A stretch of DNA of 64,000 nt from a bacterium (GTDB taxonomy: Bacteria; Verrucomicrobiota; Verrucomicrobiia; Limisphaerales; UBA11358). The stretch lies in assembly GCA_021813325.1 (NCBI GenBank), contig JAKALA010000005.1:1-64000 (forward strand), written 5' to 3'. The notes below the pieces were generated by a model. That model was not told where the DNA came from. It saw nothing but the letters and a program-made list of their open reading frames with translations, and did no database searches. The translations under genes were made by a program, and so were the position numbers. Every line of letters begins with the position of its first letter. Position 1 is the stretch's first letter. Below, in pieces: positions 5,073-59,341 of the stretch.

Positions 5073-5465
5073 TTACGACAGCGTGTTCAACGCCGGTGAA
5101 TGGACGCCGCCGTAGGAGCGTTGAATGTGTTTCAAGTTTTGGCCGACCTGGTTGATGGTGGCAAGTTTGGCCCGCATGGCCTGTTGCACCGCCTGGAGCA
5201 ATGTCTGGTTGCGGCGTTCAATGACGATCAGTTCCTGAATGGTTTCCGTCAACGTCCGCTCTTTGCGCGCCACGTCGCCCCCGGATTGGGACCATTCCGC
5301 CCGGACGATTTGGGTCAGACTGGAAACTTGTTTTTGAAGTTGCAGCAGGGCCGCCTGGCAGGCCGCGACCAGACTCCAATTGCCTTCGCCGATGGCTTCG
5401 CCTTCGGCTTCCGCCAGACGACGCCACTCGCGATAGGCATTGGTCAGGTCGCGTTCGGCTTTCAT
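5073..5465 (-). CDS. FliT/FlgN-like small helical protein of the flagellar operon
   Basis: From ATG 5463-5465 the product is 130 residues. An upstream in-frame ATG at 5489 would overlap the end of fliS, so the shorter form MKAERDLTNAYREW is preferred. It is charged and predicted to be almost entirely alpha-helical, with heptad-like stretches (LLQLQKQVSSLTQIV; TLTETIQELIVIERRNQTLL). Its size, helicity and position directly after fliS fit the FliT/FlgN class of export chaperones, which are short helical bundles with poor sequence conservation. No diagnostic motif is visible, so the role is inferred from context only. The gene is 21 bp before the HD-GYP regulator and is almost certainly co-transcribed with fliS. 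Confidence 0.6.
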   Translation of the reverse strand: MKAERDLTNAYREWRRLAEAEGEAIGEGNWSLVAACQAALLQLQKQVSSLTQIVRAEWSQSGGDVARKERTLTETIQELIVIERRNQTLLQAVQQAMRAKLATINQVGQNLKHIQRSYGGVHSPALNTLS

Positions 5466-5473
5466 GGGCGATT

Positions 5474-5908
5474 TTACGCGGTGACACATTCAGCCAGCCG
5501 GCTGGGTTCGCACCGCAAGGGATTTTGATTTTCCAGCATCTGGGCCCAGGCGTTGCGCAGTTCCGTCAGGTGGCGGATGACTTCCTTCACCCCGGACTCG
5601 TCTTTCTTGAAATTGCTTTCCGCGAGGCGGCGGTCAAAATACTCGTAGAGGCGGCGCATGGTGCGGGCAAATTCTCCGCCAGCTTCCAGATTCAATGAAC
5701 CGTTCAATTCGCGGATGATGTCTTGGGCGCGCTGGAGATTATTGTGAATGGTCATGTTGGCTTCCGCCGGATCCGAGTAGGCAAATCCCGGCAAAGACCG
5801 CTCCAACGCCAGCAGCGCCCCCTCGAAGAGCATCAGGATGATTTGTCCGGGCGACGCGGTAAGCGTGGTAATTTGACGGTATGATTTCCATGGATTGGCG
5901 GTTTGCAT
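5474..5908 (-). CDS. fliS: Flagellar secretion chaperone FliS
   Basis: The 144-residue product begins MQTANPWKSYRQITTL and contains the FliS hallmark TASPGQIILMLFEGALLALE, followed by helices including NNLQRAQDIIRELNGSLN and a conserved-type MRRLYEYFDRRLAESN. FliS binds newly made flagellin C-terminal ends in the cytoplasm and delivers them to the flagellar export apparatus. Length is typical (FliS is usually 125-145 residues). It lies between a FlgM-like gene (53 bp upstream) and the FliT/FlgN-like gene, in the same operon as fliD, which is the common fliD-fliS arrangement. Identification is strong from the N-terminal motif. Confidence 0.93.
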   Translation of the reverse strand: MQTANPWKSYRQITTLTASPGQIILMLFEGALLALERSLPGFAYSDPAEANMTIHNNLQRAQDIIRELNGSLNLEAGGEFARTMRRLYEYFDRRLAESNFKKDESGVKEVIRHLTELRNAWAQMLENQNPLRCEPSRLAECVTA

Positions 5909-5961: not shown

Positions 5962-6249
5962 CTAACTCAAATTAGACTGCACGGAAGAGCTGGAATTGCC
6001 GCTAATGGCCAGCAGCTTTGCCACTCGGTCCAACAGATAATCGGGCGGATAGGAAGCGTCAGCAACCAATTGCTTGCCCTTGGCCACGGCCTCCGGCCGG
6101 GGCGCAGAGAGACTGCTCAACTGGCTTTTCAACGAATCCGACGCTGAGAACGATACGGCGGCCGATGCGTCCGGGACCGAAGTCCTCTTGGCCGCCTGCG
6201 GGCTGGATTCCGCTTGCGGAATTCTGCCGGTATTGAACTCTATTTCCAT
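5962..6249 (-). CDS. FlgM-like putative anti-sigma-28 factor
   Basis: ATG 6247-6249 gives a 95-residue protein (MEIEFNTGRIPQ...); a longer frame up to 6315 lacks support. The first half is polar and low complexity (Ser, Ala, Gln), consistent with disorder. The second half has PRPEAVAKGKQLVADASYPP followed by DYLLDRVAKLLA, which resembles the FlgM C-terminus, where an Arg-x-Glu-x-V segment precedes a short helix ending in a hydrophobic LA(x)LL. FlgM holds sigma-28 inactive until the hook is complete and then is exported. Its position beside fliS, and sigma-28-like promoters before the flagellin and che genes, support this. Similarity is weak, so the call is tentative; it could be another small flagellar protein. 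Confidence 0.55.
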   Translation of the reverse strand: MEIEFNTGRIPQAESSPQAAKRTSVPDASAAVSFSASDSLKSQLSSLSAPRPEAVAKGKQLVADASYPPDYLLDRVAKLLAISGNSSSSVQSNLS

Positions 6250-6346
6250 ACGTTTGCTAATTCTGGTGGCAGACCTTTGTCTCCATTTCAGCCAAGGCCT
6301 GCCTACTTGTCTCATCGGCAGACGTGGAGAAAACTTTAATCATTTC

Positions 6347-7072
6347 TCAGCGTGCCGGCAACGTTGCCAGAACCCGGCTGACGGTATATTCCCCAAACTT
6401 TCGGGGGGAATTATCCATTTCCCAAGCTTCTTTTATGCCATCCTGAGCTTGATTCCAATCAAAAATTGAACGCCACTTCGCGGGTTGCTTCCGTTGCAAC
6501 TCCTTGGATACCTGTGGTTGCCTGGCGTCAAAAGACTGATCCGCCGCCCATAAAACTTGGTGCGAACGCACATCCACCAGTTTCAACCGCCACCCCACCG
6601 CCAAAGGCGCATACGCCCGATACTGCGACAACTCCGAAAACAAGACCGCATCGCAACCCGAAATCCGCTGCAAGGCGTCAAAAAAATCGGCAGGCAGTTG
6701 CTCGGTCCCGGTCCAACTGAGCCGTCCAGTCACCCCGCGCAAGTCTTCAGGCGCGATGGGCACCACCTCGAATTTGCCGGTTTTGCCCAGCTCGGCGTTC
6801 AAAATGGGACCCAACGCTTCGCACCCCTGCATCCGATCCGAGGAATCGCTGGCGGTGGCCAAGGGCAACACCGCCACGCGCCGCAGCGTGACCGGCAAAA
6901 CCGACGACAAACTGAACACATTATCCACCGGATTGGAGCAGGCTCCCGGCTCGGCTGAAACCGGAACCAGCAAACAAACCATTAACACCCCAAGCCGCCT
7001 TTGGGTTTTCACCAGCCACCAACAGCGGATCTGATCCGATTTGGCATTAAGTTGATCATTGGCGCGCTGCAT
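6347..7072 (-). CDS. Exported CsgG/TolB-like protein of the flagellar operon
   Basis: The 241-residue product has a hydrophobic export segment near residues 26-42 (RLGVLMVCLLVPVSA) with a Cys soon after (PGACSN). The mature part carries RRVAVLPLATASDSSDRMQG, then a region with GPILNAELGKTGKFEVV. This is the layout of the anticodon-binding-like fold shared by CsgG, FlgO/FlgT-type outer-membrane flagellar proteins and TolB N-domains, in which an inner VxVLPF strand is followed by a helix and an F(e/d)VV strand. It begins 4 bp after the fliD stop codon, which implies translational coupling. A periplasmic or outer-membrane role in flagellar assembly is inferred from context. The exact family cannot be settled by eye. 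Confidence 0.6.
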   Translation of the reverse strand: MQRANDQLNAKSDQIRCWWLVKTQRRLGVLMVCLLVPVSAEPGACSNPVDNVFSLSSVLPVTLRRVAVLPLATASDSSDRMQGCEALGPILNAELGKTGKFEVVPIAPEDLRGVTGRLSWTGTEQLPADFFDALQRISGCDAVLFSELSQYRAYAPLAVGWRLKLVDVRSHQVLWAADQSFDARQPQVSKELQRKQPAKWRSIFDWNQAQDGIKEAWEMDNSPRKFGEYTVSRVLATLPAR

Positions 7073-7076
7073 GTTC

Positions 7077-8816
7077 CTAGAGCGACCCGTTGTTGACCGC
7101 CTGCTGCAAATAGGTCAGTTGCTGATTGACTTGTGATTGCGCCGTCTCCATGGCTTGAAACTCGGCCGTCCACTGGGCCGTATCCGCGGTGATTTTTTTT
7201 TCCAAAGTGGCAATTTGACTGGCCAACGCATCGTTTTGCTGGGTGAGGGAATCCTGGTGCGTGGCAATCGTGCCGCCAGCCCCAATCGTATTATCCAGAA
7301 ACGTGTTCAAACGGGTGGCCCAGCCGTTGGTGCTGTCGGAAAAGAAATTCTTCACGTCGTTCAAGTTGTTGGCCAGGGCGGAACTCAACGCCGTGGAATC
7401 CTTCAGGGTCAGCGTGTTGTCCTGACCGTTGGTCTGGATGCCCAGGCTGGCCAGCATTTGAATGGCTCCCGACAAACCGCTCAACGGGGAAAAAGCGGAC
7501 GAACGCAGGTTGGAAGCGATGCCCGTGATCGTCTGATCGCTGGTCAGGATCCCGGGAGTCACCTTCCCGTTCGAACCGGTGGTGACAATCTGCTGGGCGC
7601 TGATGGTGGTTTGCACCGCATTGTAATCCGTGATGAACTTCTGGATGGCCGTGCCGATCTTGGATGTGTCAGTGCTGACCGCCATCGTCACGGAACCCTG
7701 ATTCAGCGCCGTCACCGTAAGTCCGGCAACATTGGAACTGTCCGAAGTAATGGTGTTGGATTGGCTGACCAATTGCTGCGTGCCGCCGTTCAGCGTGTAG
7801 AGCAGATTATTGCCGCGCGCCAGGGTGCCGCCCGTCAGCCCGACCGCATCCAGAAAATTGCCTTTGCCCGAAACGGATTGCAGGGTAATGCCCACATCCC
7901 CCGTGCTGTTATTGGTCAGCACAAACCGGTTGTTCTGGGTGTCATAACTGGCGGTGACCCCGGCGCTGGAATTGTTGATGCGGTCGAGCACGTTGCTGAT
8001 GCTATCGCTGTTGACGTTGTAATTGATCGTCACGCCATTGATGGAAAACTGGCCATCGCCGTTGGCATCGCCGGTAATGGCCGTGGCCAGGTCCGAGTTG
8101 GCCATGGCAGCCGTCAACCGCACCCCGCCCAGCGTTGCGGTGCTGGTGATGGCGCCGGTGCCATTGTTATAGAGCTTGGCCGCCTGGAGAAAATTGCTGG
8201 TGTCGGTCGCGCTGCCCAAAGTAATCGCCTGCCCGGAAGTGTTGCTGGTGAGGGTGATTTTATCCGCGGCGGCATCATAAGTCGGCGTCACCCCGGCTGC
8301 GCTGATCTGGTCAAAAACGCTTTGCAGCGAATCCGTCGCGGCAATGGTGATCTGCGTGCCGTTCACCGTGAACGTGCCGGCCGAGACGGGCGTCATAAAG
8401 CCGGCCGTCCCCAAAGTGACATTGCTCAGATTTCCGCCGGGAGCCAGCACCTGGCTGATGCTGGCGGTGCCGTTGATTTTGGCCGCCGTGGCCAGTTGCG
8501 AAATATTGAAAGTGAAGCTGCCGCTGGCCGCGCCCGCCACGGTGGCCGCGGTGGCAATGGTGGCATTGGAACTGTTGACCGTGGTGCTCTGGTAAAGCGT
8601 GGAATCTTGCAGGGCTTTGACATCCGCCTGCAGGGTGGTCAGATCGGTTTTGACAGTATCGTAGGCCGATTTTTGATTGCTAATGGTGGCCTGCTGCGTG
8701 GTCCAGGGCGTTTCCGCCCCCCGCTCTGCGGCGGCCAACTGGGTAATCACCGATTTCCAATCCATGCCCGAGGCCAGACCGGAAATTGACAGGCTGCTTG
8801 ATAGCGAACTCGACAT
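7077..8816 (-). CDS. fliD: Flagellar filament capping protein FliD (HAP2)
   Basis: This 579-residue protein starts MSSSLSSSLSISGLASGMDW, the FliD N-terminal pattern (GLASGMDWxxxItqL). It has the N-terminal coiled coil (TTQQATISNQKSAYDTVKTD) and a C-terminal coiled coil ending AMETAQSQVNQQLTYLQQ. The long Ser/Thr/Asn-rich centre matches the exposed domains of the cap. FliD forms the pentameric or hexameric cap that folds flagellin subunits at the filament tip. It is the first gene of the operon that continues to the hybrid kinase and lies 134 bp after the first flagellin gene, with a strong hairpin between them. No clear promoter or Shine-Dalgarno is visible directly before the ATG. Confidence 0.93.
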   Translation of the reverse strand: MSSSLSSSLSISGLASGMDWKSVITQLAAAERGAETPWTTQQATISNQKSAYDTVKTDLTTLQADVKALQDSTLYQSTTVNSSNATIATAATVAGAASGSFTFNISQLATAAKINGTASISQVLAPGGNLSNVTLGTAGFMTPVSAGTFTVNGTQITIAATDSLQSVFDQISAAGVTPTYDAAADKITLTSNTSGQAITLGSATDTSNFLQAAKLYNNGTGAITSTATLGGVRLTAAMANSDLATAITGDANGDGQFSINGVTINYNVNSDSISNVLDRINNSSAGVTASYDTQNNRFVLTNNSTGDVGITLQSVSGKGNFLDAVGLTGGTLARGNNLLYTLNGGTQQLVSQSNTITSDSSNVAGLTVTALNQGSVTMAVSTDTSKIGTAIQKFITDYNAVQTTISAQQIVTTGSNGKVTPGILTSDQTITGIASNLRSSAFSPLSGLSGAIQMLASLGIQTNGQDNTLTLKDSTALSSALANNLNDVKNFFSDSTNGWATRLNTFLDNTIGAGGTIATHQDSLTQQNDALASQIATLEKKITADTAQWTAEFQAMETAQSQVNQQLTYLQQAVNNGSL

Positions 8817-8899
8817 ATGTTTTCAAATCGGTTTGTTATTTTAAACGGCCAACCATACCTGACTCAAACCACCTGCCCGCCGCCGCCAAGTTCAAACCC

Positions 8900-8922
8900 C
8901 GGACGGCGCACCGCGCCGTCCG
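8900..8922 (-). terminator. Hairpin downstream of the first flagellin gene
   Basis: A perfect 10-bp stem (8900-8909 with 8913-8922, CGGACGGCGC) with a 3-base loop lies 28 bp after the flagellin stop codon. The strand after the stem has only a weak T-run, so it may terminate only partly or may stabilise the mRNA 3' end. Confidence 0.6.
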
Positions 8923-8950
8923 AGGATGTAACTGCGGCTAAACCGGCTGA

Positions 8951-9754
8951 TTAACCCAAGAGTTTCAGCGCGATTTGCGGCATGGCGTTGGCTTGCGCCA
9001 ACATGGCCGTGCCGGTTTGCACAAGAATATTTTCTTTTGCGTAGTTAGTGCTCTCCTTGGCCACGTCCACATCCATGATCTGGCTGTTCGCAGCGGAGAG
9101 GTTGTTGTTCAACGTGGCGAGCTGGTTGTTGTAGTTCGTCAACGTTTCGATGTTCGAACCCACATCAGCGCGCTTGGAGGCGACATCGGTCAACGCCGCT
9201 TTGACAGAGGTCAACGCCGCTGCCGCACCGGTGGTGGTCCCGACGGTGGCCGAATTCAGGCCCGTGAAGGCGCTGGTCGTCAGATCAACGCCCTTGTTGG
9301 TGAACCCGTTGGCATCGCTGTCCACCGTAACGCTCAGGTTGTTGCCACTGAACAAGCTCACCCCATTGAAGTCCTTGGTCGATACGTTGTTCACATATTG
9401 GGCCAAAGTATTGAACTCCTGTTGGTAGAGAGCGCGATCACTGTCCGACTTGGTCACGTCCTGGGCTTGGACCGACAATTCGCTCATACGATTCAACGCA
9501 TTGGTCACCTGTCCCAGATAACCGTCTTGCGTCTGGTTGAACGAAATGGCGTTAGCCACGTTGTTTTGCGCCGCCGTATTCCGCCCCATTTGGGCGGTCA
9601 ACTGCATGGAGACCGCCAAACCGGCGCTGTCATCCGCCGGCGAAGTGATCTTCGAACCGGAAGACAAACGCGCAAGTGAGGCGCTTAACCGTGCGCTGGA
9701 TTGTCCCAGCAGCTGTGCGGTTGCTTGTGCTGATGTGTTTGTATTGATTACCAT
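8951..9754 (-). CDS. fliC: Flagellin (copy 1)
   Basis: The 267-residue product has only the conserved flagellin ends. The N-terminal D0/D1 part includes LARLSSGSKITSPADDSAGLA and AISFNQTQDGYLGQV; the C-terminal D1/D0 part ends AKENILVQTGTAMLAQANAMPQ-IALKLLG. The variable D2/D3 domains are almost absent, so the filament surface is minimal compared with the ~500-residue enterobacterial form. The start is fixed by MVINTNTSAQ and by a good Shine-Dalgarno (GGAAGGAG). It is about 80% alike by eye to the second flagellin 535 bp away, which implies tandem duplication. A sigma-28-like promoter and a structured leader precede it. Confidence 0.96.
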   Translation of the reverse strand: MVINTNTSAQATAQLLGQSSARLSASLARLSSGSKITSPADDSAGLAVSMQLTAQMGRNTAAQNNVANAISFNQTQDGYLGQVTNALNRMSELSVQAQDVTKSDSDRALYQQEFNTLAQYVNNVSTKDFNGVSLFSGNNLSVTVDSDANGFTNKGVDLTTSAFTGLNSATVGTTTGAAAALTSVKAALTDVASKRADVGSNIETLTNYNNQLATLNNNLSAANSQIMDVDVAKESTNYAKENILVQTGTAMLAQANAMPQIALKLLG

Positions 9755-9815
9755 AACTGACTCCTTCCATGAGTCACCCCTTGCGGGGATCTATTGCACG
9801 GCATCCCTGCCGCGA
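9755..9815 (-). promoter_or_regulatory. Structured flagellin leader with two GGA-loop hairpins (candidate CsrA sites)
   Basis: Reading the minus strand toward the ATG there are three stems. The distal one, 9799-9812, has stem CGGC(A)/(T)GCCG and loop AGGGAT. The middle one, 9777-9788, is CCCC-GCAA-GGGG. The proximal one, 9759-9775, has stem GACTC/GAGTC and loop ATGGAAG, which hides part of the Shine-Dalgarno. The distal site reads CAGGGATG, matching the CARGGAUG core of the known CsrA SELEX consensus. The two GGA loops are 38 nt apart. The same layout precedes flagellin copy 2. Confidence 0.65.
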
Positions 9816-9895
9816 GGCAAACCTTTGATTATGAGGCGTTCACCTGTTGTTTCCTCTCTGGCCGTTGATGGTCGCCAGCACCATGTCGCAACTTC

Positions 9896-9924
9896 TTTAT
9901 CGGCGTTTGGCGCCAATACTTGAG
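9896..9924 (-). promoter_or_regulatory. Sigma-28-type promoter of flagellin copy 1
   Basis: On the minus strand the sequence is TCAAGTAT, 11 bases, GCCGATAA. The enterobacterial sigma-28 consensus is TAAAGTTT-N11-GCCGATAA, so the -10 octamer is exact and the spacing is exact. It lies about 143 bases before the ATG, giving a leader of roughly 135 nt. Confidence 0.8.
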
Positions 9925-10210
9925 CCGCGAAATTTACCGGGGTTGACGGTTCCCAAACCTTGCCCCAGCCCGAAGCCGATGGCGTTCCTGAGACTGAGAC
10001 TTAACAGACGGTTCTGACGGGCGAGGAGCCGAACCAGCACCCCCGGGGGCAAAGTCATGGCGAATCGAATCGTGCATCTCTCGGTGGCGAACGTGGTCGC
10101 TAGACGTTCGGCCGGAGGGCAATGGAATCTGCCACGGGGGGGTTGCGCTGGTTGGTTTAGGCGAGGCTTCATAGCCGTGCTCCTTCATCCGCTTTATAGG
10201 TCATTTGAGG

Positions 10211-10238
10211 TGGTTTAAAAGTTGCCGGTAAAGCCGGC
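10211..10238 (-). terminator. Terminator of flagellin copy 2
   Basis: A 5-bp GC stem (10224-10228 with 10234-10238, GCCGG/CCGGC) is followed on the minus strand by AACTTTTAAA. It lies about 50 bp after the flagellin stop. The remaining stretch to 9925 holds no gene I can support; short open frames there overlap the promoter and have no recognisable features. Confidence 0.55.
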
Positions 10239-10289
10239 CTGGACGTTCCTCATGAACCGCCCAAGCCCACTAACTGCCGGCGTTGAATT

Positions 10290-11102
10290 TTACCCCAAAA
10301 GCTTCAGAGCAATCTGCGGGAGCGAATTCGCCTGCGCCAACATCGCCGTGCCGGTTTGCACCAAAATGTTGTATTTGGCGTATCTAGTGCTTTCCTGCGC
10401 CACATCCACATCCATGATCTGGCTGTTGGCCGCGGAAAGATTGTTGTTCAGCGTGGAAAGCTGATTATTGTAGTTGTTGAGCGTCTCCACATTGGCGCCG
10501 ATATTGGCGCGGTCGGCCGCCAGGAGCGCGATGGCCGACTTGACGTTGCCCAGGGCGGTCGCCGCACCCGTCGTGGTGCTGATGTCGTTGGTGCCGGTGT
10601 TGGCCAGGGTCGAGAAGGTGGAATCCGTCAGATTCACTCCTTTCATGTCAAACGTGTTGCCATCGCTGTCGATGGTCACCTTAAGCGTGTCGCCATTGAA
10701 GAGACTGACACCGTTGAATTCCTTGGTGGACACATTGTTGATGTAGTTGGCCAAGGTGTTGAATTCCTGTTGATACAGGCCGCGGTCGCTATTCGATTTC
10801 GTCACATCCTGCGCTTGCACCGAGAGTTCGCTCATGCGGTTCAAGGCGTTGGACAACTGGGACAGATAACCGTCCTGAGTTTGGTTGAACGAGATCGCGT
10901 CGCCCACGTTGTTGGAGGCGGCGGTATTGCGGCCCATCTGGGCCACGAGCTGCATGGACACAGCCAGACCGGCGCTGTCATCCGCGGGTGAAGTGATTTT
11001 CGAGCCTGAGGACAAACGAGCGAGGGATTTACTGAGCTGCGTGGAGGATTGCATGAGCAGCGAAGCGCCGCTCTGCGCCGACAAGTTAGTATTGATTACC
11101 AT
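10290..11102 (-). CDS. fliC: Flagellin (copy 2)
   Basis: ATG 11100-11102 (MVINTNLSAQSGAS) gives a 270-residue flagellin; longer in-frame starts lie inside the structured leader and are rejected. It keeps LARLSSGSKITSPADDSAGLA-type D0/D1 motifs and the C-terminal NILVQTGTAMLAQANSLPQI. As in copy 1, the central variable region is reduced to a short Thr/Asp-rich insert near residues 150-190 where the two copies differ most. It probably forms the filament together with copy 1, and FliS and FliD encoded downstream act on it. It is preceded by GGAAAGAG as Shine-Dalgarno, by a leader parallel to that of copy 1, and by a sigma-28-like promoter. Confidence 0.96.
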   Translation of the reverse strand: MVINTNLSAQSGASLLMQSSTQLSKSLARLSSGSKITSPADDSAGLAVSMQLVAQMGRNTAASNNVGDAISFNQTQDGYLSQLSNALNRMSELSVQAQDVTKSNSDRGLYQQEFNTLANYINNVSTKEFNGVSLFNGDTLKVTIDSDGNTFDMKGVNLTDSTFSTLANTGTNDISTTTGAATALGNVKSAIALLAADRANIGANVETLNNYNNQLSTLNNNLSAANSQIMDVDVAQESTRYAKYNILVQTGTAMLAQANSLPQIALKLLG

Positions 11103-11161
11103 AACTCTTTCCGTGAGTCGCCCCGTGAGGGGCATTGATTTTTCGCGGCGTCCTTGCCGCG
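11103..11161 (-). promoter_or_regulatory. Structured leader of flagellin copy 2 (candidate CsrA sites)
   Basis: Three stems occur in the same order as before copy 1. The distal stem, 11144-11161, is CGCGGC/GCCGCG with loop AAGGAC. The middle stem, 11120-11133, is GCCCC-GTGA-GGGGC. The proximal stem, 11103-11119, is GACTC/GAGTT (one G-U pair) with loop ACGGAAA over the Shine-Dalgarno, touching the ATG. GGA motifs are 41 nt apart. The stem sequences differ from copy 1 while pairing is preserved (covariation), which supports real RNA structure. Confidence 0.65.
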
Positions 11162-11241
11162 GGCGCATCAGTTAGAGGGCGATGCACCGTTTACCCTGTC
11201 AGCTCTATTTGGTGGCTGACCACCAGTCTTGCGACAACCCA

Positions 11242-11270
11242 TTCATCGGTGGAAACCGCCAACACTTGAG
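11242..11270 (-). promoter_or_regulatory. Sigma-28-type promoter of flagellin copy 2
   Basis: Minus strand TCAAGTGT-N11-ACCGATGA aligns base for base with the copy 1 promoter (same -35 core CTCAAGT, same 11-base spacer). It lies about 140 bases before the ATG, the same distance as in copy 1. Upstream to 11504 I see only low-complexity A-rich sequence and no gene. Confidence 0.72.
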
Positions 11271-11504
11271 GCCCGTTTGCAAAAAAATCCAACCCCGCGC
11301 CGCAACCACGCGGAACCATTGTAAACAAAGGCGATCTTAAACATCCCAGCATCAAAAAAAACATTCCGCCGCCGCGAAAAAGTTGAAAATTTTGTGCAAA
11401 AAACCGTTCGCCGCCCCCCATTCCCGCGCCCCATTCACCCAGCCGCCGGCCGCGGCATTCGTTTACGACTTGCCAGCCCCAGGCCGAATTTGAAAACTGA
11501 CCCC

Positions 11505-32796: not shown

Positions 32797-33139
32797 AAAA
32801 CACTTTCAAAAAGCGGATTTACAGATTTTCGGGCAAAAGTTTGATCCTTTGAATTCAGGTTATTGAGTTCATCGAAGTCTCAAACGTTCAACTCGTCTCG
32901 CCAAGAGTCATACTTCGACAATTTGAGTAATTGAATGGTCAAAATAACTCTTTTAAATCCACTAATTCGCGGAGCCCGCAAGCCACTTTGTAAACGGCTG
33001 ATCATTAAGCATTAACTTACAGCTTAAAAATACCCTTAAAGACTAGAGCAAATTAGCCGATGCGAAATTTGTTGTGCTTTTCATCCAACCATAGGGGCTA
33101 GGATTAAATGACGAGCATGGCGGGTATTTACAAGCATCT
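32797..33139. other. AT-rich intergenic region before the chemotaxis operon
   Basis: This 343-bp gap is noticeably AT-rich and holds the sigma-28-type promoter at 33037-33063. Apart from that I see no gene, repeat or hairpin that I can support. Confidence 0.5.
33037..33063 (+). promoter_or_regulatory. Sigma-28-type promoter of the chemotaxis operon
   Basis: TAAAGACT, 11 bases, GCCGATGC. The -35 core TAAAG and -10 core GCCGAT both match the TAAAGTTT-N11-GCCGATAA consensus with exact spacing. It lies 77 bases upstream of the first cheY. Confidence 0.78.
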
Positions 33140-33508
33140 ATGCCAAAAAAGATTATTACGGTGGATGACGCCATGACCATGCGTAAAATGATCAGTTTTA
33201 CGTTAAAAGAGGCTGGGCACGAGGTCATTGAAGCGGCGGATGGAGCTATCGCGCTAAACCTGCTCCGGAACCAAGCAGTGGATTTGGTCATTAGCGATGT
33301 CAACATGCCCAACATGGATGGCATTACGCTAACCCGCCGTTTACGCGAACTACCAAATTTCAAAACCGTCCCGATCATTTTGCTGACCACCGAATCCGCC
33401 CCGGAAGTGAAGTCCCAGGGCAAAGCCGCCGGCGCCACCGGCTGGATTGTCAAACCCTTCAAACCGGAACAATTGGTGGCCCTCCTGCAGCGACTTTTCC
33501 CCGTTTAA
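33140..33508 (+). CDS. cheY: CheY-type response regulator (first)
   Basis: This is a single receiver domain of 122 residues. It has paired acids in ITVDDAMTMRKM, the phosphorylation Asp in LVISDVNMPNMDG, the switch residues LLTTES and the conserved Lys in VKPFKP. All active-site residues are present. There is no output domain, so it acts by protein contact, typically on the flagellar switch protein FliM. It opens the chemotaxis operon 77 bp after the sigma-28-like promoter and precedes cheA by 16 bp. A second CheY gene is further down the operon, so one may serve as a phosphate sink. Confidence 0.95.
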   Translation: MPKKIITVDDAMTMRKMISFTLKEAGHEVIEAADGAIALNLLRNQAVDLVISDVNMPNMDGITLTRRLRELPNFKTVPIILLTTESAPEVKSQGKAAGATGWIVKPFKPEQLVALLQRLFPV

Positions 33509-33524
33509 TCCAACCGACATTTTT

Positions 33525-36170
33525 ATGGCCAACAACGACGCCCTCCAACAGCAATTGATCAAAGACCTGCTCGTTGAGAGCGCTGAAGGTCTGGACCGTT
33601 TTGACCGCGAAATCCTGGCCATTGAAAAAGGCGAGGGCACGACGGAAACCCCCAACATCGTGTTCCGCGTCATTCACACCATCAAAGGCACCAGCGGTTG
33701 TCTGGGGCTTAATAAAATTGAATCCGTGGCGCATGTCGGCGAAAACCTTTTAAGCGCCTGGCGCGACGGGAAAGTCGAGGTCAGCCCGGAAATGACGACC
33801 GCGCTGTTCGCCTACTCGGACGCGCTGCGGGAAATGCTCCGTTGTTTGGAAACCACCGGCGCCGAAGGCAGCGCCGACTATTCGGATTTGCTGCAACAAT
33901 TGCAAGACTTGCTCGACACCACCGCCACCCCCGCGCCCGAAGCTCCCGCCGCCCCGGCTGGGTTTGGCCTGTTCGAAGATGAACCGGGAACAAACGTTCC
34001 CGCCCCCCAACCCGACGCCGAGCCAGTGGCCAAAACCGTTGCTCCCGCGGAAAGCGACAGTCCCGCCAGTAAAGCGCCATCCGCAGCGGCCTCCGCCATC
34101 CGGGTGGACGTGGGCCAGCTCGACAAGCTGATGAATCTGGTCGGGGAACTGGTGCTGGCCCGCAACCAGATTGTGCAATATTCCGGCCAGGCGAAGGACT
34201 CCGCCCTCATTGCCGCCTCGCAGCGCCTCAACATCATCACCACCGAATTGCAGGAGAGCGTGATGAAAACCCGGATGCAGCCCATCGGCAACATCTGGTC
34301 CAAATTTCCGCGCGTGGTCCGCGATGTGGCGCATGAACTCGGCAAAGACGTGCAACTGGTAATGGAAGGGCAGGAAACCGAACTGGACCGCACCATCATT
34401 GAGGCCATCAAAGATCCGCTGACGCACATTGTCCGCAACTCCATTGACCACGGCATCGAGAAACCCGAAGCCCGGGCCGCCGCCGGCAAGAAGTCTCAGG
34501 GCAATTTGGTGCTGCGCGCCTTCCACGAGGGCGGACAGGTGAACATTGAAATCAGCGACGACGGCCGCGGCATCGACATTGGCCGCATTAAACAAAAAGC
34601 GATCGAAAAAGGCATTGCTAATCACGATCAAATTTCGCGGATGAGCGACCGAGAGGCGTTCAATTTAATTTTTCTTCCCGGCTTTTCGACTGCGGAAAAA
34701 GTGACCAACGTCTCCGGCCGCGGCGTGGGCATGGACGTGGTGAAAACCAACATCGAACGCATTGGCGGCTCGGTGGATATTCTGAGCGAAAACGGCAAGG
34801 GCACCACGCTGAAAATCAAGATCCCGCTGACGCTGGCCATCATTCCCGCGCTCATCGTCACGAGCGGGGGCGAGCGATTCGCCATTCCGCAGGTCAGCCT
34901 GCTGGAACTGGTGCGGCTCGAAGCGGAACAGGCGCGCAAGGGCATCGAAACGGTTTACGGGGCGCCGGTTTATCGCCTGCGCGGACAATTATTGCCACTG
35001 GTTTTTTTGAACCAAACGCTGGCCGGCACCTCCCGGGAGCGGGCGGGCGGTTCAGGGTTCATGCAGCAACAGGCCCATGACACCGGCGACCTGTTCCTCA
35101 AGGCCCGCGAAGCGCACCGCAACTGGCTGCGAAAGCTGCGCCAGGTGCTTGAGGGCACCCAGACCATGACATTGGAAGAAGCCGGCTCGCATACGCTTTG
35201 CGCGCTAGGCAAATGGATTTACGCGGATGGATTGAAGAAATTCGGCGCAGTGCCTGAAATGCAAGCCCTCGAAAAAGTCCATCAACATTTTCACGATGCC
35301 GTCAAGGAGGTGGTTGCTCAGAAAATTTCGGAAAACCCAGTCAAAGCCGAGGCCGCATTTAAGCGCGCCACAAACATCTCCCGTGACGTCTTCAATTGCC
35401 TCACCAACGCGGAAAAACGCATCGTCGAAAATCAGAACATCAACATCATTGTCCTCCAGGCAGACGGACGCCAGTTTGGTTTGGTGGTGGATGGGATCAA
35501 TGACACGGAGGAAATTGTCGTCAAACCGCTCGGCAAACAGCTCAAGGCGATCACCTGTTTTGCCGGCGCCACCATCATGGGGGATGGGAAAGTGGCGTTG
35601 ATTCTGGATGTGCTCGGCCTGGCCCAGCACGCCAAGGTCATTTCGGAAGTCCGCGATCACGCTTTGTTGGACAAGGAAGAATCCGCAACCCGGATCGACA
35701 ATCGCCAGACGCTGCTGCTGTTCGATGCCGGTGCCGGCTCGCGCATGGCGCTGCCGCTTTCGCTGGTGGCGCGACTGGAAGAATTTCCCCGGGCCAAGGT
35801 CGAAAACTCCGGCACCCAGGAAGTCGTGCAATACCGCGGCCAAATCCTGCCGCTCATCCAGGTTTCCAAATACGTCACCACCACGCGGCCCTCCGAGCCG
35901 ATCTGCTCGGACCCGATGCAGGTGGTGGTCTATTCCGAACAGGGCCGCAGCGTGGGCCTCGTGGTCAGCAAAATCAACGACATCGTCCAGGAAACCGTCA
36001 CCGTCAAACGCGAGGCGGCGGGCAATGGCATCCTGGGCTCCGCTGTCATTCAGAACAAGGTCACGGATCTGGTGGATATTCCGGCCATTATCCGCGTGGC
36101 CGCGCCGGCTTTTTACGAGAACCACTCTCCGGCCGCAGATTCAACCCCGGAAATGCAGGCCATTCTATGA
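33525..36170 (+). CDS. cheA: Chemotaxis histidine kinase CheA with a CZB-type domain inserted in P5
   Basis: ATG 33525 (MANNDALQQQ) gives 881 residues. The order is: Hpt (P1) with phospho-His51 in RVIHTIKGTSGCLG; a Pro/Ala linker to ~180; dimerisation P3; a kinase domain with HIVRNSIDHGIE and the D-G-R-G-I-D / GRGVGMDVV boxes; and a P5 first half at ~440-510. Then comes an unusual insert at ~520-635 with H531-x-x-W, Cys559 in TLCALGKW and H586-x3-H590, the zinc ligands of a chemoreceptor zinc-binding (CZB) domain. The P5 second half continues at ~640-715 (GRQFGLVVDGINDTEEIV). A second CheW-like domain occupies ~725-870. It phosphorylates the CheY proteins and CheB; the insert may sense Zn or redox state. 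Confidence 0.93.
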   Translation: MANNDALQQQLIKDLLVESAEGLDRFDREILAIEKGEGTTETPNIVFRVIHTIKGTSGCLGLNKIESVAHVGENLLSAWRDGKVEVSPEMTTALFAYSDALREMLRCLETTGAEGSADYSDLLQQLQDLLDTTATPAPEAPAAPAGFGLFEDEPGTNVPAPQPDAEPVAKTVAPAESDSPASKAPSAAASAIRVDVGQLDKLMNLVGELVLARNQIVQYSGQAKDSALIAASQRLNIITTELQESVMKTRMQPIGNIWSKFPRVVRDVAHELGKDVQLVMEGQETELDRTIIEAIKDPLTHIVRNSIDHGIEKPEARAAAGKKSQGNLVLRAFHEGGQVNIEISDDGRGIDIGRIKQKAIEKGIANHDQISRMSDREAFNLIFLPGFSTAEKVTNVSGRGVGMDVVKTNIERIGGSVDILSENGKGTTLKIKIPLTLAIIPALIVTSGGERFAIPQVSLLELVRLEAEQARKGIETVYGAPVYRLRGQLLPLVFLNQTLAGTSRERAGGSGFMQQQAHDTGDLFLKAREAHRNWLRKLRQVLEGTQTMTLEEAGSHTLCALGKWIYADGLKKFGAVPEMQALEKVHQHFHDAVKEVVAQKISENPVKAEAAFKRATNISRDVFNCLTNAEKRIVENQNINIIVLQADGRQFGLVVDGINDTEEIVVKPLGKQLKAITCFAGATIMGDGKVALILDVLGLAQHAKVISEVRDHALLDKEESATRIDNRQTLLLFDAGAGSRMALPLSLVARLEEFPRAKVENSGTQEVVQYRGQILPLIQVSKYVTTTRPSEPICSDPMQVVVYSEQGRSVGLVVSKINDIVQETVTVKREAAGNGILGSAVIQNKVTDLVDIPAIIRVAAPAFYENHSPAADSTPEMQAIL

Positions 36171-57670: not shown

Positions 57671-59341
57671 ATGGCAAAAGTTTCCACCAAAAAGCCCGCC
57701 AGCAAGAAATCCGCCAAAGCCGCCGCCGCCGCCAGCACACCGCCGACTGAGACGGCGGCTCCTGCCGTCAACCAGCCGGCCCCAGTCCCCGCTGCACCCA
57801 AAACTTCCGAAAAAGCCTCCGGCAAAACTGCCGCCGAAAAGGCCAAAGCGGCGCCGGTTGAAAAACCCGCTCCTCCCGCGCCGGTCGAACCGGAACTGCC
57901 CGCTGAACGCACGGTGGACAGCATCAAAGCCGCCGCCCAGGAGGATGCTCAACGCGATGCTTCGATAATGGAATCCGCAAAGTCTTCCACGGCCTTGCGC
58001 CCGCCTTCAGCCCCGGTTGAACCAACGGGAGAAGAACCGCGCTACATTGAGCGCCGGGGCTACCAGCGCGACCGCATCGCCACCTCCATGAACATCGCCA
58101 AGCTGCAGGCCATGCAGATGACGGAATTGAACGCGATGGCCAAGGAGTATGGCGTGGAAAACTTCGGCACCATGCGCAAGCACGAGGTTATTTTTCATAT
58201 CCTCCAAAAAAACGCGGAACGCGCCGGCGTGTTGTTTTCCGAAGGCGTCATTGAAGTTTTGCCGGAGGGCTTCGGCTTTTTGCGTTCGCAAAGTTTCAAC
58301 TACCTGCCCTGCCCGGAGGATATTTACGTTTCGCCATCGCAAATTCGCCGGTTTGATTTGCAGACGGGCAACCTGATCACCGGCCAGATTCGTCCGCCGA
58401 AAGAGAAGGAAAAATTCTTCGCGCTCCTGAAAGTTGAGGCGGTCGATGGTGAGGATCCCGACAAGGCCAAGGACAAAACTCACTTTGACAACCTGACGCC
58501 GTTGTTCCCAAACAAGCGGTTCATTCTGGAAACCTCGCCCGATGAGTTGAGCACGCGGGTTCTGGACTTGGTTTGCCCGATCGGCAAGGGCACGCGCGGC
58601 TTGATCGTGGCACCGCCGCGCACCGGCAAAACAGTCATGATGCAAAAAATCGCCAACGCGATTTTGAAAAACAACCCCGAATCCTATTTGTTCATTCTGC
58701 TGATTGACGAGCGTCCGGAAGAAGTCACCGACATGGAACGCACCTGTAAGGGCGCTGAGGTGATTTCCTCCACCTTCGATGAACCGCCGGAGCGGCACGT
58801 GCAAGTTGCGGAAATGGTCATTGAAAAAGCGCGCCGCATGGTGGAACACAAGCGCGATGTCGTCATCCTGCTCGACTCGATCACGCGCCTGGCACGGGCT
58901 TACAACACAGTGCAGCCGCATTCCGGCAAGATTTTGTCTGGCGGCGTGGACGCCAACGCGTTGCACAAACCCAAACGCTTCTTTGGCGCCGCCCGGAATA
59001 TTGAAGAAGGCGGTTCGCTGACCATCATGGCCACGGCGCTGGTCGATACCGGCAGCCGCATGGATGAAGTGATTTTTGAAGAATTCAAAGGCACCGGGAA
59101 CATGGAGGTTCATCTGGATCGTGCGCTGGTTGACCGCCGCATCTTCCCCTCCATCAACATCGAACGCTCCGGCACCCGCAAAGAAGAATTGCTCTACCAT
59201 CCGGACGAATACAACCGGGTGGTGGTGCTGCGCCGCGCGCTCACCGGGGTGCCGCCGGTGGAAGCCATGGACCTCATGCTCGGCAGGTTGCGAAAAACAA
59301 ACAGCAACATTGAGTTCCTGCTTAATATGTCAATCAGTTGA
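57671..59341 (+). CDS. rho: Transcription termination factor Rho with N-terminal extension
   Basis: ATG 57671 ([16 protein letters not shown]) gives 556 residues, long for Rho (about 420). The first ~130 residues are a low-complexity Ala/Pro/Lys/Glu extension. The Rho N-domain follows ([20 protein letters not shown]), then the cold-shock-like RNA-binding domain ([35 protein letters not shown]). The ATPase core has Walker [15 protein letters not shown], Walker [17 protein letters not shown] and the Q/R loops ([20 protein letters not shown]). It is an RNA-dependent helicase that ends transcription. Its insert-like N-terminal tail is of the type seen in many high-GC or planctomycete/verrucomicrobial Rho proteins. 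Confidence 0.95.

Follow-up and report, generated by a model that had tools for sequence, protein, structure and literature searches.

The FliA regulon of Escherichia coli includes, in the sections of PMC4183435 consulted here, flagellin, flgM, the che operons and receptors among its targets. For Bacillus subtilis, the portions of PMC6529632 and PMC7652899 that were consulted describe control at two levels, by FlgM and by CsrA, and a hag leader with two CsrA sites, one of which overlaps the ribosome-binding site. The present locus lies in a 64,000-nucleotide stretch of contig JAKALA010000005.1 (the window) from a bacterium of the Verrucomicrobiota, order Limisphaerales, whose genome is assembled in 123 contigs (4.28 Mb, 95% complete). 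As far as those sections of PMC4183435 go, it is like the E. coli FliA regulon in motif, spacing and target classes. It is unlike E. coli in two respects: E. coli fliDST has a FliA site, whereas fliD here is without one, and the relative of FlgM has diverged strongly and is encoded between fliD and fliS. Compared with the B. subtilis Hag-FliW-CsrA system, fliW and csrA are both present and adjacent in this genome, and the flagellin leader contains two candidate CsrA sites, one of them over the ribosome-binding site, but the host belongs to a different phylum. A conserved C-rich hairpin stands between the two candidate sites here, a possible further difference from hag.

We consider it very probable that the sites described below are FliA promoters of a late flagellar and chemotaxis regulon, with feedback through a FlgM-like protein and control of the flagellin leaders by CsrA and FliW. 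RNA polymerase carrying FliA would transcribe chemotaxis genes along with those for the two flagellins and the FlgM-like protein. The FlgM-like protein would sequester FliA up to the opening of the export gate, and, with its gene under the same promoter type, would close a feedback loop. Each flagellin transcript would start with some 135 nt of leader, in which two hairpins bear GGA in the loop and the second covers the ribosome-binding site; CsrA would bind there and block translation, and FliW would relieve this block, as for B. subtilis hag.

Sigma-28-type promoters in the window

A sequence-only reading of the window had proposed three promoters with the FliA pattern and an exact 11-bp spacing, two before flagellin genes and one before chemotaxis genes, and all three are present where it placed them, to within one base (Table 1). 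Direct reading of the sequence gives the consensus TNAAG-N15-CCGAT at each, which corresponds to an 11-base gap between two 8-mers, a TAAAG-like -35 element and a GCCGATAA-like -10 element; the cheY site fits this description weakly. While its sites and their sigma-28 assignment stand, that reading missed the promoter of the FlgM-like gene, which is the best consensus match in the window, has the second-best matrix score and lies 62 nt upstream of the gene start; its proposed sub-class of -35 elements does not hold, as set out below.

Table 1. Features of the window, and sigma-28-type sites elsewhere in the genome
Feature	Position	Strand	Remarks
Small gene after fliS	5073-5489	-	
fliS	5474-5908	-	Pfam FliS
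FlgM-like, putative anti-sigma-28 gene (95 aa)	5962-6249	-	HMM matches of family members, locus, promoter
FlgM-like gene sigma-28-type promoter	6312-6338	-	TAAAGTTT-N11-GCCGATGA; matrix score 26.0
Conserved gene between fliD and FlgM-like gene	6347-7072	-	No Pfam family; PelC/FlgT/TolB-N-type predicted fold
fliD	7077-8816	-	Pfam; no sigma-28-type site of its own
Hairpin between flagellin 1 and fliD	8870-8930	-	No clear T run
Flagellin 1	8951-9754	-	Pfam Flagellin_N and Flagellin_C
Flagellin 1 leader RNA, candidate CsrA target	9752-9840	-	Two GGA-loop hairpins and a C-rich hairpin
Flagellin 1 sigma-28-type promoter	9897-9923	-	TCAAGTAT-N11-GCCGATAA; matrix score 26.2, best in window
Flagellin 2	10290-11102	-	Pfam; likely start 11102, longer ORF reaches 11168
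Flagellin 2 leader RNA, candidate CsrA target	11100-11190	-	Architecture as in flagellin 1 leader
Flagellin 2 sigma-28-type promoter	11243-11269	-	TCAAGTGT-N11-ACCGATGA; matrix score 21.1
Weaker sigma-28-type site before cheY-cheA-cheW-receptor-RR-cheB-cheR	33037-33063	+	TAAAGACT-N11-GCCGATGC; matrix score 15.9
cheY	33140-33508	+	Pfam Response_reg; name rests on place before cheA
cheA	33525-36170	+	Pfam; likely start 33525, ORF open from 33447
Site before cheW	C118:2745		Matrix score 25.0
Site before second cheA (cheA2)	C118:5126		Matrix score 20.6
Site before cheR	C6:173277		Matrix score 23.5
Site 255 nt before cheD	C6:173108		Matrix score 20.9
Site before receptor gene	C6:175185		Matrix score 16.1
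Site before receptor gene	C91		Matrix score 19.8
Site before receptor gene	C41		Matrix score 19.3
Site before 319-aa ORF (no family scan)	C6:167656		Matrix score 25.6
Site before 132-aa protein without clear family (L169)	C34:75478-75504	-	Matrix score 24.0
Site before response regulator with SpoIIE domain	C15:12701		Matrix score 21.3
Site before DUF3391 protein	C83:13734		Matrix score 16.6

The promoter matrix was built from 37 sites of relatives, with none from the genome under study, namely 20 of 21 flagellin matches (L079 omitted as a near copy of L077) and 17 of 18 FlgM-like matches (the own site omitted), and the lowest score among these training sites is 17.4. Three window sites score at least 20, compared with 0.01 expected per window from 200 dinucleotide-shuffled windows, and four score at least 15.9 (0.13 expected from 200 dinucleotide shuffles). 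As for the spacing, TMAAG..CCGAT occurs in the window five times at a spacing of 15, compared with three occurrences summed over 20 other spacings (5-25). One of the five, at 58580-58604 on the minus strand, has a matrix score of 5.7 and is probably a chance match.

The arrangement recurs in relatives. In the upstream regions of 34 flagellin loci from relatives, TNAAG..CCGAT has 21 occurrences at spacing 15 and two at 16, and none of the remaining 13 spacings between 8 and 22 gives any; an exact match is absent at 13 of the 34 loci, one of which has just 124 bases upstream. The corresponding counts for the 26 distinct FlgM-like loci (own included, after four duplicates were dropped) are 18 at spacing 15 and three over 14 others. 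Promoter position and spacing are kept before the orthologous flagellin and FlgM-like genes. Flagellin relatives in named assemblies number 34, 29 of them with Verrucomicrobiota names, and eight of these 29 belong to Limisphaerales or subdivision 3. Throughout the own genome, TMAAG-N15-CCGAT occurs 43 times and the reversed pattern eight times; spacing controls are preferred because the reversed pattern has another composition and may carry a codon-use bias. Within the first 100 of 407 own-genome TNAAG matches, 21 fall at spacing 15, compared with 2-14 each (mean 7.9) at ten other spacings. Few bases of the motif are fixed, and across the genome many of its matches fall inside ORFs, as would be expected if all of the sites had arisen by chance, but the shuffle, spacing and conservation controls all oppose this: they refute a chance origin of the flagellin and FlgM-like sites, and we give practically no credence to the notion that every site is a chance match.

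The heptamer CTCAAGT at -35, taken in the sequence-only reading as the mark of a possible promoter sub-class, is present at both window flagellin sites, and could in principle define a distinct flagellin class read by another sigma factor or by a modified FliA. The C variant is, however, not associated with gene class: in relatives, base 2 of the -35 element is A, T or C in 13, 4 and 3 of 20 flagellin sites and in 11, 3 and 3 of 17 FlgM-like sites. The identical -35 element also occurs before cheR and the C91 receptor gene in the own genome, only one sigma factor of this genome lies over the FliA cut-off, and in E. coli TCAAGT is found at flgKL and TTAAGT at ycgR (both from the consulted part of PMC4183435). 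The upstream DNA of the two window flagellins, which are paralogues, can be aligned, and therefore their shared -35 element needs no special cause. We reject a flagellin-specific CTCAAGT sub-class on the C-variant counts, and consider its recognition by a different or modified sigma factor highly improbable.

The FlgM-like gene and its neighbours

The proposal that the flagellar locus contains a FlgM-like gene is borne out by a gene that co-occurs with FliA and carries the same promoter type. The window protein itself, unlike members of the FlgM family, matches neither PF04316 (at E<=10) nor any NCBIfam model, TIGR03824 included, but it is like that family in its C-terminal pattern RPExVARAxxLxxDxxYP, its locus and its promoter. 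PF04316 has no hit at E<=10 in the own genome, and the gene was recognised through its relatives. Of these, 15/23 have a PF04316 match at E<=1 (best 7e-6) and 9/23 a TIGR03824 match (best 1.6e-7), where the 23 are the aligned members of the 26 distinct loci, i.e., all except L068, L111 and L118. The sole PDB match of the family profile is a weak one (E 0.26) to 9wsf_B, 'Negative regulator of flagellin synthesis'; the same PDB entry includes a FliA chain. FliS or FliD is encoded next to the FlgM-like gene at 21/23 related loci.

Across 59 genomes, FliA is found in 22 at E<=1e-40 (21 over the family cut-off), and a FlgM-like protein in 22 at E<=0.006, with 21 genomes in common (p 9e-14, a value that assumes independent genomes, which related genomes are not). 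The threshold of 0.006 was chosen after the lists were known; at E<=0.1 there are 27 genomes with a FlgM-like protein, 21 of them FliA-positive, and at E<=1e-3 there are 20, of which 19 are FliA-positive. We describe the 95-aa protein as FlgM-like, i.e., a probable diverged relative that would bind FliA.

No sigma-28-type element had been noticed before fliD, and the matrix scan agrees, with no window site scoring at least 9 between 6338 and 9897. In relatives an exact site before fliD is missing from 14/15 and present in 1/15. Transcription of fliD may proceed by read-through from flagellin, which is uncertain because a very stable hairpin stands between the two genes (stretch 8860-8950: -48.9 kcal/mol, z -4.4 for folding relative to shuffles).

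The gene that separates fliD from the FlgM-like gene is conserved, with a relative in 21/23 related loci. The predicted structure of its product (pLDDT 83.9) resembles PelC (Z 13.2) and FlgT (Z 10.9), and also CsgG, GNA1162 and TolB N-terminal domains, and the protein may form a ring in the cell envelope as part of the flagellum. At the other end of the cluster, the small gene after fliS has relatives in 15/23 related loci; its product gives very weak FlgN/FliT-like matches and is possibly a flagellar chaperone.

FliA and the chemotaxis genes

A single protein encoded in the genome exceeds the FliA/WhiG family cut-off, with 248.4 bits against 189.6, and represents one clear fliA gene. Its best PDB matches are 6pfv and 6pfj, named 'RNA polymerase sigma factor', followed by FliA chains; the 6pfv and 6pfj chains are presumably WhiG. 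The matrix scan and annotation of own-genome sites support a promoter type common to flagellins and chemotaxis genes, with high-scoring sites before the flagellins, the FlgM-like gene, che genes and three receptor genes (Table 1). This survey covered 25 inspected sites, for which 11 downstream ORFs were located and ten of these 11 annotated. For many of the 25 there is an overlap with long ORFs of one strand or both, the cheR, cheD, second-cheA, C91 and C41 receptor sites included; the ORF list cannot part true from false sites, because che and receptor sites and probable chance sites both overlap ORFs. FliA control of chemotaxis in this genome is well supported.

The sigma-28 link between chemotaxis and flagellins drawn in the sequence-only reading thus stands as a shared promoter type, but the site on which it was based, that before cheY, is the weakest of the four window sites, falls below all 37 training sites, and has poor counterparts in the two closest orthologues. 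Upstream of these two cheY-cheA loci the best scores are just 8.5 and 4.2, and the site is not conserved, the 8.5-scoring one having exact spacing with CTCAAG and CCGAC. Together with the stronger sites before cheW, cheR and cheA2, these observations suit a reading in which the flagellin and FlgM-like sites are sigma-28 promoters, the one before the cheY operon matches by chance, this operon has some other means of transcription, and FliA governs chemotaxis via cheW/cheA2, cheR and receptors only. On the other side, the site combines exact spacing with TAAAG and GCCGAT and stands 76 nt upstream of the start of cheY, its score is rare among the shuffled windows, and the more distant cheA locus L137 has a site scoring 25.8 at 72 nt before the matched part. 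Scores of at least 15.7, a threshold chosen after the scores were known, occur in the 1.5 kb upstream of 7/29 CheA loci and on the reverse strand of 1/29; for scores of at least 17.4 the counts are 5/29 and 1/29. The 29 are all of 30 CheA loci except that of the window, with paralogues included, one of them from the own genome. The orthologue promoter test covered 17/30 CheA loci. In a count of exact motifs, 3/17 CheA loci have one within 1.5 kb upstream. CheY is found at E<=1e-30 in 3/59 genomes, own included. We regard a chance origin of the cheY-operon site as a distinct possibility, if a doubtful one, while FliA control of chemotaxis through 33037-33063 is moderately supported.

Four further cheA loci (L156, L157, L158 and L159) have in common a diverged -35 element (CTACAGT, TTTTAGT, CTTCAGT) with a good CCGATA -10 element. 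These sites are normally spaced and lie 457-494 nt upstream of the matched cheA part.

A structured leader RNA before the flagellin genes

Promoter and start codon are separated by about 140 nt in both window flagellins and by 129-201 nt in relatives. The final 70 nt before the start contain two GGA-loop hairpins, the second of which covers the ribosome-binding site, and a conserved C-rich hairpin is placed between them. Each GGA-loop hairpin is present in 31/33 leaders, compared with 12.5 (distal) and 10.0 (proximal) after shuffling with GGA kept; the 33 are those of 36 leaders other than L092, L093 and L095, and the flagellin 2 row is one base out of register. The leader alignment comprises 32 of the 36, near copies included, L086 being omitted in addition to these three. 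No such hairpins are seen in the L086 leader, and its omission makes the covariation count lean towards hairpin-bearing leaders. In the aligned rows the distal GGA is invariant (32/32) and the proximal GGA is found at the aligned columns in 28/32.

Covariation over the three-helix structure in these 32 leaders amounts to 28 double-sided cells, compared with 7.0 in shuffled alignments, a value reached by 0/500 shuffles, and 89% of cells are paired, compared with 35-47% for slid versions of the structure. Pairs with a double-sided change number 8 (4.8 shuffled; reached by 10/500 shuffles). Such changes affect 5/7 pairs of the distal hairpin and 1/5 of the proximal one, i.e., covariation support is strongest for the distal hairpin and weak for the proximal hairpin. 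In single-sequence folding relative to shuffles, the flagellin 2 leader is much more stable (z -4.14) and the flagellin 1 leader marginally so (z -1.46).

A covariance model of the leader has exactly two matches in the own genome, the two flagellin leaders, and matches in 19/59 genomes, 18 of which are FliA-positive. Among its 40 matches in the 59 genomes, 34 stand directly before a flagellin start and three reach a contig end; the others are two before a response-regulator gene and one before nothing recognisable. The two response-regulator matches (L214 and L215) are weak, and one of them has a sigma-28-type site upstream. A search of Rfam with window stretch 9600-11400 returned no match at E<=1.

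By analogy with hag, the flagellin leaders are likely to be CsrA-controlled. FliW is found in 22/59 genomes, 21 of which also have FliA. CsrA of this genome is 105 aa long; the B. subtilis protein is shorter. The hairpins might instead be a generic structure for translation control or mRNA stability that is not a CsrA target: the window copies lack an Rfam match, and the distal stem has 7 pairs, whereas most SELEX hairpins for CsrA have four or fewer (PMC7652899, in the part consulted). Against this, the GGA motifs are conserved in all (distal) or most (proximal) aligned rows, the distal loop CANGGAYG closely resembles RUACARGGAUGU, given as the SELEX consensus in that part of PMC7652899, and the genome holds both fliW and csrA, of which fliW co-occurs with FliA. 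We judge a generic structure rather unlikely, and retain CsrA-FliW control as the preferred reading of the leaders.

On balance, we think it probable that the flagellated Verrucomicrobiota of this order have a two-layer flagellin switch, in which a FliA/FlgM-type gate would be combined with a CsrA-FliW gate acting on a structured leader family (no Rfam match) that has a C-rich third hairpin between the CsrA sites. Two relatives (L214, L215) may show a spread of this leader to a response-regulator gene. As a type of circuit this is nothing unusual, but it is well supported in a phylum that has been little studied. Among the literature matches listed, judged by titles and the beginnings of abstracts and with few subscription journals covered, there was no paper on a FliA/FlgM or CsrA/FliW circuit in Verrucomicrobia, and the sentence of PMC4682653 that names phyla possibly using FliW does not include Verrucomicrobia.

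The analysis extends the FliA/FlgM circuit, and probably the Hag-FliW-CsrA circuit too, to a phylum on whose motility control literature searches turned up little, provides a promoter matrix and a leader-RNA model, and discounts the proposed CTCAAGT sub-class as a novelty. The most interesting part is the leader RNA, which lies outside the coordinates of the original observation: as a conserved element, it offers a testable case of CsrA control beyond the usual model phyla.
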